DNA of 38,884 bases, taken from assembly GCA_002843035.1 (NCBI GenBank), contig PHEV01000010.1, positions 1 through 38,884 of the forward strand, written 5' to 3'. This DNA comes from Actinobacteria bacterium HGW-Actinobacteria-5 (GTDB taxonomy: Bacteria; Actinomycetota; Actinomycetes; Propionibacteriales; Propionibacteriaceae). The translations under genes were made by a program, and so were the position numbers. This document shows positions 7,348 through 36,143 of this stretch, in pieces (position 1 is the first letter of the stretch; the number at the start of each line of letters is the position of its first letter). The notes beneath the pieces were generated by a model that saw only the letters and a list, made by a program, of their open reading frames with translations, made no database searches and was not told the origin of the DNA.

Positions 7348-8496
7348 CTAGCCCACGGAGACTTCGACAGGGCCGGATTCGCCCACCGGCAGCTCGGCCG
7401 CGAGCCGGTTGGCCTCCTCGATCAGGGTCGCGACGATCTCGGACTCCGGGACCGTCTTGATCACCTCGCCCCTCACGAAGATCTGGCCCTTCCCATTCCC
7501 GGACGCCACCCCGAGGTCGGCCTCGCGCGCCTCGCCCGGCCCGTTCACCACGCACCCCATCACGGCGACCCGCAGCGGCACCTCCATGCCCTGCAGTCCT
7601 TCGGTGACCTCGTCGGCGAGCTTGTAGACATCCACCTGGGCGCGTCCGCACGACGGGCAGGACACGATCTCCAGGTGCCGCGGACGCAGGTTCAGCGACT
7701 CCAGGATCTTGATCCCGACCTTCACCTCCTCGGCCGGCGGTGCGGACAGCGAGACCCGGATCGTGTCGCCGATGCCCTGCGCCAGCAGCGCACCGAAGGC
7801 GACCGAGGACTTGATCGTGCCCTGGAACGCGGGCCCTGCCTCGGTGACGCCGAGGTGCAGCGGGTAGTCGCAGGCCTCGCTGAGCTGCTCGTAGGCGCGC
7901 ACCATCACCACCGGGTCGTGGTGCTTGACCGAGATCTTGAATTCGCGGAAGTCGTGCTCCTCGAACAGGCTCGCCTCCCACAGCGCGGACTCGACCAGCG
8001 CCTCCGCCGTGGGCGCGCCGTACTTGGTGAGCAGCCGCTTGTCCAGCGAGCCGGCGTTCACGCCGATCCGGATCGACACCCCGGCATCGGTGGCGGCCTG
8101 GGCGATCTGCTTGATCTGGTCGTCGAAGGCACGGATGTTGCCCGGGTTCACCCGGACGGCCGCGCAGCCGGCGTCGATCGCGGCGAACACGTACTTCGGC
8201 TGGAAGTGGATGTCGGCGATCACCGGGATCTGGCTCTTCTTCGCGATGATGTGCAACACATCCGCGTCGTCCTGGCTGGGCACGGCCACGCGCACGATGT
8301 CACAGCCGGTCGCGGTGAGTTCGGCGATCTGCTGCAGCGTCCCGTTGATGTCGGTGGTCTTGGTGGTGGTCATCGATTGCACCGAGATCGGCGCGCCACC
8401 GCCGACCAGCACCTTGCCGACCCGGATCTGCCGAGTGGGTCGGCGCGGGGCGAGCACGGGCGGAGGGGTTGCGGGCATCCCGAGATTGACGGTCAT
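7348..8496 (-). CDS. ispG: 4-hydroxy-3-methylbut-2-enyl-diphosphate synthase (IspG/GcpE)
   Basis: 382 residues, the two-domain bacterial form. IspG converts MEcPP to HMBPP in the MEP isoprenoid pathway using a [4Fe-4S] cluster. The N-terminal TIM barrel shows [12 protein letters not shown] and RVNPGNI. The C-terminal domain has the cluster cysteines in [12 protein letters not shown] and [12 protein letters not shown], with the glutamate ligand of the last motif. ATG start with GAGGA upstream. It belongs to the actinobacterial dxr-rip1-ispG-GNAT set, but here a plus-strand META gene separates it from rip1, so it must have its own promoter. Confidence 0.97.
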
Positions 8497-8648
8497 CCAT
8501 TCCTCGATCTGTCGGTGTCGGTGCCCGGGGGCACCATGCGCAGACAGCCTACCCAGCGGGCAGCCGCGGGAGCGGATGCGGTGCGGATCATGCGCAGAAC
8601 TCCGGCCTCCGGGCAGGATGGACGCACAGCACAGCCCAGGGGGAACCG

Positions 8649-9851
8649 ATGTCGCAGCGCACCGACCGGGACGCGGAGTTCACCGCGTTCCTGGCCGCCG
8701 ACTCCGCGAGTCTGGCCCGCGTGGCGTTGCGCCTCACCGGCGACCCGGAGGCTGCTGCCGACCTGCTGCAGTCCGTGCTGGTGAAGACCTACCTCGCCTG
8801 GCCGCGGGTGGGCCCGGACCGAGCGCTGGCGCACGCCCGCGCAGCCATGGGCGCCCCCAGCGGCGGCGAGGAGCCCGACAGCGGGGATGTGGACGTCCCG
8901 CTGGACCCTGACCACGTCCTCGCCGAGGGCCACAACGCGCTCCGGGGCCGCCGGATGGGCTGGACGGTGGCGGGCCTGGCCGCGCTCGCCGTCGTCGCGT
9001 CCATCCTCACCCCGATCCTGATCGCCGCGACCGTGCCCCCGGCCCCCGGAGCATCCCCTGCCACGTCGCCCACGGCCCAGGCCACCCCTTCGGTGCGGCC
9101 GAGTCCGGTGCCGGAGCTCCTCGGAACCGTGTGGCAGGTGGCCGGCTTCGATGGCGTCGCGTTCGGCCCGTCCCGGACCATGACCGCGCGGTTCGACGGT
9201 GGCGTCGTCTCCGGGTTCTCCGGGTGCAACACCTTCCGCGGCAGCTACTCCCTCGACGGGAGCACGCTCGCGGTCGAGTCGGTCGCCTCGACCGCGAAGA
9301 GCTGCCCCGGCGCGGCAGGGAGGGAGGAGAGGGCGTTCCTGAAGGCCCTGGCGCGGGTCCGCGGCTACGAGGCCGGCCTGAACGGGCCTGTCCTGGTCGG
9401 CGAGGACGGGTCGCCGGTGGTGGCGCTGGTCCCGCTCACCCCGGACGCGACGACCTGGCGGCTGGTTGACCTGGCCGGGACGGAGCAGGTCGGCGCAGGC
9501 ATCACCTTCACGGTCACCGGCGACCAGCTGAGCGGCGACTCCGGCTGCGGCGAATACGCCGCCGACCTCACCCGCGAAGGGAACGCCTGGACGGTGTCGA
9601 ACCTCGCCCTCTCCACCACCGTCCGCTGCCCGGAGGCGGCGAACCGGCGCGCCACCCACTACCTCGCCGCGCTCGGCCAGGTGACCAAAGCCGAACTGGA
9701 CCCCTTCCGGCTCACCCTGACCGGCCCCGACGCCAAGCTGTCGTTCGCCCCTGCCGCCGGCTGCCACCACGACCTGGCTGACGCCACCGGCGCGATCCGC
9801 CGCCGGCTGAGCTCGCCGGCACCGGGCGTCAGAAGATCTGCACCGGGCTGA
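8649..9851 (+). CDS. ECF-sigma-like N-terminus fused to a membrane helix and two META domains
   Basis: 400 residues. ATG start with AGGGGG upstream. Residues ~10-55 resemble region 2.1-2.2 of SigE-family ECF sigma factors ([10 protein letters not shown], then [20 protein letters not shown] and LAWPRV). The promoter-recognition part of region 2 and all of region 4 are missing. Residues ~60-103 are a charged linker ending GRRMGW. One helix spans ~104-129, with the arginines predicting an N-inside topology. A Pro/Ser/Thr-rich stalk (~130-155) leads to two META (HslJ-like) domains at ~157-262 and ~269-368, each with a likely disulfide pair (C193/C219 and C300/C327). It overlaps the convergent rip1 gene by 23 bp. 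It could be a collapsed sigma/anti-sigma pair; function unknown. Confidence 0.85.
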
Positions 9852-11118
9852 TGATGTCGGCCAGGATCAGCGCGACCCCGCTGAGCAGGAGCAGCCCGCC
9901 GACCGCGTAGGCCACCGGCAACAGCCGGGCGGTGTCGAAGAAGCCGGGGTCGCGGCGTCCGAACAGCGTCGCCAGCCTCCGCTTGGCGCCCTCGTAAAGG
10001 GCCCCGGCGATGTGGCCGCCGTCCAGCGGCGGCAGCGGGATGAAGTTGAACAGCGCCAGGAACAGGTTGACCGATGCCAGCAGCGACACGAATGTCGCGA
10101 TCTTGTCCGGCCAGCTCACCTCACCGGAGGCGACGACCTGCCCGGCGACCGTGCTCGCGCCCACGATGCTGATCGGGTCGTAGGGACTGCGCGGCTGGCC
10201 GGTGACCATATCGGCAACCACGTTCCAGACCCTCGCCGGGAACTGCACGAGCGCGACGGCGCTCTGCGCGGTCATCGTCCACATGTCAGAGAGCACGTCG
10301 ATGGGGCCGCCCCGGACCAGCGCGCGGTCGGGGCTGACGCCCAGCCAGCCCGCCTGCACCCGGGTGCCGGGGTCCAGGGTGCCGGGCACCGAGCTCACCA
10401 CGGTGTGCACGGGGGTGAGGTTGACGGTCTGTCCGTTCCGCTCGACCGTGATCCGCGCCTCGCCGCCCAGGTTGGCCCGGATCAGGCCGCTGAGCTGGCT
10501 GTAGGAGCTGACCGGGGTGCCGTTGAAGCTCACGATGCGGTCCCCGACCTGCAGCCCGGCCTGGGCTGCCGGGGACTTCGGGTCCGAAGCGGAGCACTCG
10601 GTACGCGACGCGTCGGTGATGATGCACTGCTGGACGTAGGCGATCGTGGTCTGGGGACGCACGACGCCGTAGCCGGCGGTCACACCGAGGAGCAGGAAGA
10701 AGGCGATCAGCAGGTTCATCATCGGGCCGCCGGCCATCACGATCAGCTTCTGCCAGGTCTTCTTCTGGTAGAACAACCGCTGGTTCGCCACGTCATCGGG
10801 AGTGATGTCCTCCCACTCCGCGTCGCGCGCGGCGTCGGCGAAGTCGGCCAGCCGGGTGCGCCGCCGCCTGCCGTCCGGACGCGGCGGGTACATGCCGAGC
10901 AACTGGACGAACCCGCCGAGGGGGAAGCCCTTGATGCCGTACTCGGTGTCGCCGCGCCGGGTCGACCACAGGGTGGGCCCGAAGCCCACGAAGTAGCGGG
11001 GCACCCGGACACCGAACAGCTTGGCCGGCACCATGTGGCCGATCTCGTGCAGCGCAACCGAGACCATGATCAGCGTGAAGAACGCGATCCCGAAGGCGAT
11101 CACGGTGAGGGTTTCCAT
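9829..11118 (-). CDS. rip1: Site-2 (M50) intramembrane metalloprotease, Rip1/RseP family
   Basis: 429 residues. The zinc motif HEIGH (H24-H28) sits in the first membrane helix. A second conserved motif, NFIPLPPLDGGH, supplies the third ligand near the C-terminus. Between them is a PDZ domain (~185-260, GLQVGDRIVSFNGTPV). These proteases cut single-pass membrane substrates; the mycobacterial relative Rip1 processes several anti-sigma factors. The ATG follows the dxr stop with no gap, and the GGAG in the dxr end serves as ribosome binding site. Its 3' end overlaps the sigma-like/META gene, which encodes a single-pass N-in protein, the topology expected of a substrate. Confidence 0.95.
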   Translation of the reverse strand: METLTVIAFGIAFFTLIMVSVALHEIGHMVPAKLFGVRVPRYFVGFGPTLWSTRRGDTEYGIKGFPLGGFVQLLGMYPPRPDGRRRRTRLADFADAARDAEWEDITPDDVANQRLFYQKKTWQKLIVMAGGPMMNLLIAFFLLLGVTAGYGVVRPQTTIAYVQQCIITDASRTECSASDPKSPAAQAGLQVGDRIVSFNGTPVSSYSQLSGLIRANLGGEARITVERNGQTVNLTPVHTVVSSVPGTLDPGTRVQAGWLGVSPDRALVRGGPIDVLSDMWTMTAQSAVALVQFPARVWNVVADMVTGQPRSPYDPISIVGASTVAGQVVASGEVSWPDKIATFVSLLASVNLFLALFNFIPLPPLDGGHIAGALYEGAKRRLATLFGRRDPGFFDTARLLPVAYAVGGLLLLSGVALILADIISPVQIF

Positions 11119-35379: not shown

Positions 35380-36143
35380 TGAGCAGGATCTGGGTCGTTT
35401 CGGTGGGGCTCGTCGCCCTGCTGGCCGCCTGTGGTTCGACGACACCGGCCGGCCCGGCCGCAACCCCCGCGCCGACGCTGGCGGGGACGTCGTGGACCGT
35501 CACGGCGATCAACGGGACCGCGCCGATCAGCGGGAACGAACCCACCATGGAGTTCAGCGACACCACCGTCACCGGGTCAGCCAGCTGCAACCGCTACAAC
35601 GCCGCCTTCACCCAGGACGGGTCGAAGGTGACGATCACCCCTGGCGTCACGACCGCGATGGCGTGCGGCGCGGACGTGATGACCCAGGAGCACGCCTTCA
35701 CCGTCGCGCTCACCCAGGTGAGCGGCGCCCGCACCACCGGCGAGGGCGCCGAGCTCACCGACGGCGCCGGAACGGCCGTGCTCAGCCTGGCCAGGATCAC
35801 CGACAAGCCGCTCGAGGGCACCACCTGGACGCTGACCGGGATCATCAGCGGCGAGACGGTGGCGTCCCCGGTCGCGGAGAGCACGGTGACCCTGAAGATC
35901 GCCGACGGGCAGCTCTCCGGCAAGGCGTGCAACACCTTCCGCGGCTCCGTGACCTCCGCCGACGGCAGCTTCAAGGCCGGCCCGCTGGCGAGCACGAAGA
36001 TGGCCTGCGCCTCGACGGAGCTCAGCAAGCAGGAGACCACCGTGCTGGCCACGCTCCAGTCCGCCACCGGCTACACGATCAAGGGCAACGAGCTGACCAT
36101 CACCGCCGACGACGGCACCGGCCTGGTCTTCACCGCGAAGTAA
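35379..36143 (+). CDS. Lipoprotein with two META (HslJ-like) domains
   Basis: 254 residues. A lipoprotein signal (MSRIWVVSVGLVALLAAC) ends with the modified cysteine at 18. A Pro/Ala/Thr linker is followed by two META domains at ~33-145 and ~150-254, carrying the domain hallmarks SGSASCNRY-type (TGSASCNRYNAAF) and LSGKACNTFRGS. META domains occur in HslJ and other secreted stress proteins; the ligand is unknown. GAGGAG upstream overlaps the SURF1 end, so translation is coupled. It shares its double-META layout with the sigma-like membrane protein at 8649-9851. Confidence 0.9.
   Translation: MSRIWVVSVGLVALLAACGSTTPAGPAATPAPTLAGTSWTVTAINGTAPISGNEPTMEFSDTTVTGSASCNRYNAAFTQDGSKVTITPGVTTAMACGADVMTQEHAFTVALTQVSGARTTGEGAELTDGAGTAVLSLARITDKPLEGTTWTLTGIISGETVASPVAESTVTLKIADGQLSGKACNTFRGSVTSADGSFKAGPLASTKMACASTELSKQETTVLATLQSATGYTIKGNELTITADDGTGLVFTAK

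Follow-up and report, generated by a model that had tools for sequence, protein, structure and literature searches.

The open reading frame at positions 8649..9851 (forward strand) of the window, a stretch of 38,884 nucleotides from Actinobacteria bacterium HGW-Actinobacteria-5, joins the beginning of a SigE-family ECF sigma factor to a membrane helix and two META domains in a single polypeptide. We interpret this ORF as very probably the collapsed remnant of an operon in which a SigE-family ECF sigma gene was followed by a gene for a single-pass META membrane protein. As sister species keep both genes whole, the fusion seems to be what is left of a signalling system that has been lost. A sequence-only reading of the same DNA had favored an undescribed signalling protein, whose region 2.2 is released from the membrane by Rip1, with the added remark that the gene might be a collapsed pair. 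It is the remark that is borne out, as five genomes of the genus hold both genes separate and complete; the signalling proposal does not hold up, given that the sigma stub is relaxed, the sigma promoter is gone and so is the cytoplasmic helix of the partner.

Architecture of the fused reading frame

The frame runs for 400 codons (400 aa) without an internal stop and starts with an ATG that has a purine-rich stretch (AGGGGGAACCG) immediately 5' of it. Residues 1-67 (8649..8849, forward strand) form a sigma stub comprising regions 2.1-2.2 and the beginning of the next helix, and are 54-64% identical to the N-termini of the intact sigma genes found at the same locus in relatives. Within this stub residues 22-59 match the Pfam domain Sigma70_r2 (E 1.3e-5, positions 9-46 of the 71 in the profile), and residues 6-67 match the NCBIfam SigE family TIGR02983 (E 7.7e-13) over positions 3-65 of a profile of 162. 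The whole ORF scores 48.6 bits against a TIGR02983 cut-off of 141.55, because the remainder of the sigma factor is missing, and a Pfam scan returned no match to Sigma70_r4, the region 4 responsible for recognition of the -35 element. Thus, while the stub is homologous to the N-terminus of SigE-family ECF sigma factors, the ORF differs from them in lacking regions 2.3-2.4 and 4, and on both of these points the profiles agree with what the sequence-only reading had discerned. AlphaFold models residues 2-67 as a confident helical hairpin (helices 2-30, 33-49 and 51-67) with pLDDT mostly 84-92.

The remainder of the protein corresponds to the second gene. Alignment with intact partners identifies residues 81-104 (8889..8960, forward strand) as a juxtamembrane cytoplasmic segment derived from the former partner protein, with the motif V-x-V-P-x-D..VL..G...RGRR.GW. 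This is followed by a single transmembrane helix at about residues 105-128 (8961..9032, forward strand), which in the model is part of a long helix spanning residues 87-125. The RGRRMGW stretch preceding the helix predicts, by the positive-inside rule, an N-in topology, which would make the META domains extracytoplasmic. The first of these, an HslJ-like domain, occupies residues 157-254 (9117..9410, forward strand) and the second about residues 266-369 (9444..9755, forward strand), with modelled strands between 269 and 368. The Pfam META family PF03724 matches the ORF twice (E 1.1e-30; 106.3 bits versus a gathering score of 24), in agreement with the TM/META architecture read earlier from the sequence. 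Both domains are modelled as beta domains with pLDDT mostly around 90, and Foldseek searches with the model recovered E. coli HslJ (2kts, E 1.7e-4) and 2la7. On the strength of both score and fold they belong with the META/HslJ proteins, from which they differ in being membrane-tethered behind a sigma stub. The tail, residues 372-400 plus the stop (9762..9851, forward strand), lies past the point at which the relatives end; the model has largely low confidence beyond residue 370, with pLDDT below 50 for residues 371-383 and 389-396.

An antisense ORF in the same DNA was set aside, as a GC-rich codon structure predicts a long open frame. The fused ORF itself is not a chance frame because each of its halves aligns with a complete gene of its own at the same position in relatives. 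Another protein encoded in the window (35436-36140) also has two META-like domains, together with a lipoprotein-type signal (LAAC); its gene directly precedes one whose encoded start is similar to that of an RNA methyltransferase (CPRCGS...FDVAKQGYVNLL).

The intact sigma/partner locus and its chromosomal slot

A whole-genome search of relatives recovered the two halves of the protein as matches to two separate, mutually adjacent places. In G012, G017, G002 and G021 the interval between ispG and rip1 holds a complete sigma gene (164-169 codons) and, behind it, a TM-META gene (197-427 codons); G001 shows the same order beside ispG, with a contig break hiding rip1 (loci L032, L033, L034, L035 and L036, in G012, G017, G002, G021 and G001 respectively, all of the same genus). 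With 161.6 and 163.9 bits, the intact sigmas of G012 and G017 score above the TIGR02983 cut-off of 141.55, and that of G012 has Sigma70_r4. The partner gene lies directly behind the ECF sigma gene and is coupled to it, as is the case for membrane anti-sigma factors, with an overlap of 4 nucleotides in four of the five pairs. The partners carry from 1 to 3 copies of the META domain. By analogy with this arrangement, the intact TM-META protein is probably an anti-sigma factor that senses the envelope through its META domains. Searches against Pfam and NCBIfam gave no anti-sigma domain match in either the fused ORF or the G012 partner, and in the literature consulted no text connects META domains to both anti-sigma factors and ECF sigmas. 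In the same genus, a distinct locus of G015 (L040; G015:C1:3232602-3239708) packs four SigE-family sigma genes into about 7 kb. Behind each lies a gene for a single-pass membrane protein, and these proteins share the N-terminal motif LR...VL..GR..RR, so that the locus constitutes a cluster of sigma/partner pairs.

All five intact loci bear an ECF-type promoter, GGAAC-N17-CGTA, 42-50 bp upstream of the sigma gene, a motif that shuffled regions yield at 0.02-0.08% per region. A search of 11 genomes with GGAACNTT-N14-CGTA located it at the sigma/META pair in four of the five genomes that have one, the G012 copy being one base off, and detected zero sites in the searched genomes without the pair. 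As the motif is almost solely found at its own locus, its distribution points to an autoregulated sigma whose regulon is very small. The sole further exact match genome-wide (L074; G017:C213:33149-33174) has no obvious downstream target and is probably due to chance; with only the locus itself and this target-less site, a wider regulon was rejected.

The slot housing the pair is bordered on one side by the divergently transcribed ispG/gcpE (7348..8496, reverse strand; named by reading the sequence), which is 77-97% identical across the genus and, wherever the locus could be resolved, has either rip1 or the slot genes as its neighbour. On the other side is the convergent rip1/rseP gene (9829..11118, reverse strand), whose product has a PDZ domain and is a genuine M50 site-2 protease (Peptidase_M50, E 1e-43; HEIGH and LDGGH motifs), with a match to TIGR00054 (E 3e-38) that lies under the cut-off of that family. 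Among the 24 genomes of the genus, out of 30, in which the slot is resolvable, there are 5 intact pairs, 1 fusion, 2 cases of unrelated genes and 16 empty slots. The slot (L041-L062) is accordingly variable, being either empty or occupied by the sigma/META pair or other genes. Decayed pairs were ruled out in G027, which has a glycosyltransferase-like gene there, and in G015, which has MocR-like and aldo-keto-reductase-like genes (all named by reading the sequence). In a tree the fused genome falls among pair-bearing species, with G017 as its neighbour and G012 and G026 not far away. The pair falls in a clade with repeated loss, and in G026, beside G012, the slot is already empty.

Adjacency of the pair to rip1 is limited to some species of this genus; outside it, among the matches listed with both genes, SigE-like ones do not adjoin rip1. 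Nearness to rip1 is thus weak evidence of a functional link, because the slot is often empty and the adjacency is absent outside the genus, and we dismissed such a link as a general rule. In Mycobacterium tuberculosis Rip1 cleaves the anti-sigma factors RskA, RslA, RsmA and RsdA (PMC10202637). The TM-META proteins of the intact relatives resemble these in being single-pass membrane proteins, predicted to be N-in, that are paired with an ECF sigma, but show no detectable sequence relation to them and no anti-sigma Pfam match; what connects them to Rip1 is confined to the proximity of the rip1 gene on the chromosome, in part of the species of a single genus.

Deletion, lost signals and relaxed constraint

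Nucleotide and protein alignments place the deletion junction, an unassigned stretch, at residues 68-80 (8850..8888, forward strand). From the ATG codon of sigma residue 67 to the VEVP of the partner there are 39 nt in the window versus 347 in G012 and 353 in G017, a net loss of 308-314 bp (about 310 bp) as recorded in one fragmented assembly (295 contigs, 3.6% contamination). The deletion removed sigma regions 2.3 and 2.4, the linker, region 4, the gene overlap and some 16 residues from the start of the partner; it put both reading frames in register, the alignments joining sigma codon ~67 directly to partner codon ~17. The fused ORF consequently lacks about 60% of the sigma factor. The deleted N-terminal cytoplasmic part of the partner contains the FExxLR helix, which recurs across the genus in membrane proteins paired with other SigE-family sigmas. 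Two intact paralogous SigE-family sigma/partner pairs, with partners possessing this helix, are present elsewhere in the genome of the window.

Two further lesions lie outside the junction. The upstream region between the start of ispG and the fused ORF (8497..8648, forward strand) has no GGAAC-N17-CGTA site within 2 mismatches at the N17 spacing. At the other end the usual stop codon of the META gene is gone and the ORF extends 29 codons beyond it. The ORF does overlap rip1, as the sequence-only reading had noted; this 23-bp, tail-to-tail overlap is due to the loss of the META stop and not to a designed linkage.

The sigma stub has 14 replacements at columns that are identical in four relatives. 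On its branch dN is 0.22 and dN/dS 0.74 (bootstrap 95% 0.38-1.96), as against dN 0.036 and dN/dS 0.16, and dN 0.06 and dN/dS 0.28, for the same sigma stretch on the sister branches; these are three-taxon estimates from 67 codons with wide intervals. In the same branch comparison neither rip1 (0.31 versus 0.28 and 0.16) nor the cytoplasmic/TM segment (0.40 versus 0.32 and 0.22) is clearly accelerated. Judging from these substitutions, the stub is drifting at a near-neutral rate and its constraint is strongly relaxed. The GC3 of the ORF still stands at 0.925. Over 371 codons the ORF is free of stops and frameshifts, whereas neutrality over the whole branch (K about 0.3) would predict 6-8 nonsense changes (P about 0.001). 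Because the frame has stayed open despite this expectation, the META part of the fusion may still be under selection, or else the deletion may be recent on the scale of the branch.

Fate of the presumed signalling system

Based on these observations and on general ECF biology, we propose that in the intact state the META protein would hold the sigma factor at the membrane and release it upon an envelope signal, whereupon the freed sigma would transcribe from the GGAAC-N17-CGTA promoter of its own gene. A sigma factor without regions 2.3, 2.4 and 4 cannot recognise promoters. In the lineage of the window the net deletion of ~310 bp fused the sigma to its partner with loss of the first cytoplasmic helix of the latter, and the sigma promoter and the stop codon that used to end the META gene disappeared as well. 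Any protein produced would most likely be anchored in the membrane and consist of META domains behind a drifting, vestigial stub, with no sigma-type output.

Such a remnant might nonetheless have a function. It is possible, at somewhat less than an even chance, that the protein, having lost its sigma role, now serves under selection as a membrane-anchored, HslJ-like META protein of the envelope, for which the stub would supply no more than a start site and a cytoplasmic leader. The META domains are intact, with a score as good as that of the G012 partner (106 versus 101.6 bits; E 1e-30) and no stops or frameshifts, and the lack of clear acceleration in the TM segment is in keeping with such a role. 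However, META domains evolve fast everywhere, so that one genome cannot reveal constraint in the lineage; the C-terminal read-through also speaks against it, as does the lack of a recognised promoter, a scan for terminators and for promoters of the sigma-70 type alone having found none.

It is improbable that the ORF encodes a working one-protein device. In such a scheme the tethered stub (regions 2.1-2.2) would dock on the beta-prime clamp of RNA polymerase, or on a cognate partner, with cleavage by Rip1 setting it free. In favor of such a device are the recognisable region 2.2 core, the confidently folded hairpin, the open frame and the adjoining rip1. There is also a precedent in IutY (ECF243), which, along with ECF48, ECF52 and ECF53, is a natural sigma/anti-sigma fusion retaining the full sigma, and is cut by RseP (PMC8999054). 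The fused ORF resembles these proteins in uniting, in one chain, sigma sequence and a membrane-spanning partner with an extracytoplasmic domain. Nevertheless, they represent whole groups or tested systems, while we are dealing with a single case of a truncated sigma with signs of decay: in place of the complete sigma2 and sigma4 of the IutY and ECF52/53 type only regions 2.1-2.2 remain. As the known fusions keep the full sigma, the fused ORF is not of their kind, and its stub cannot read promoters. The near-neutral drift of the stub, the lost promoter and the failure of the rip1 adjacency to extend beyond the genus further oppose a working device. Moreover, the architecture, whose absence from relatives the sequence-only reading had itself named as grounds for refutation, is present in one genome only: full-length relatives of the fusion were found neither among 97 relatives nor among 392 genomes of the order, which have separate genes only, and a scan of genome contigs gave one sigma-only match.

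An assembly artefact, by which a species with an intact pair lost about 310 bp to the assembler, has a similarly small likelihood. The fragmentation and contamination of the assembly would fit this explanation, but an artefact would spare the flanks, whereas the 14 replacements at conserved sites are private to this sequence, and both promoter and stop are gone. Synteny is perfect on both sides, and a search elsewhere in the assembly gave no close orphan match for the lost sigma sequence. The three independent lesions therefore make a pure assembly artefact unlikely. Least probable, and very unlikely in itself, is a selected fusion whose tethered region 2.1-2.2 fragment competes at RNA polymerase or at the partners of paralogous SigE-family sigmas, with turnover by Rip1.

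Viewed as the remnant of an operon, the fused ORF presents an ECF sigma/membrane-partner pair in the middle of being lost: the promoter, the DNA-binding regions, the partner helix and the stop codon have gone so far, and the sensor domains remain. The intact SigE-family sigma and TM-META pair of the relatives, which is a candidate for an undescribed ECF sigma/anti-sigma system, is a more interesting object than the fusion itself.
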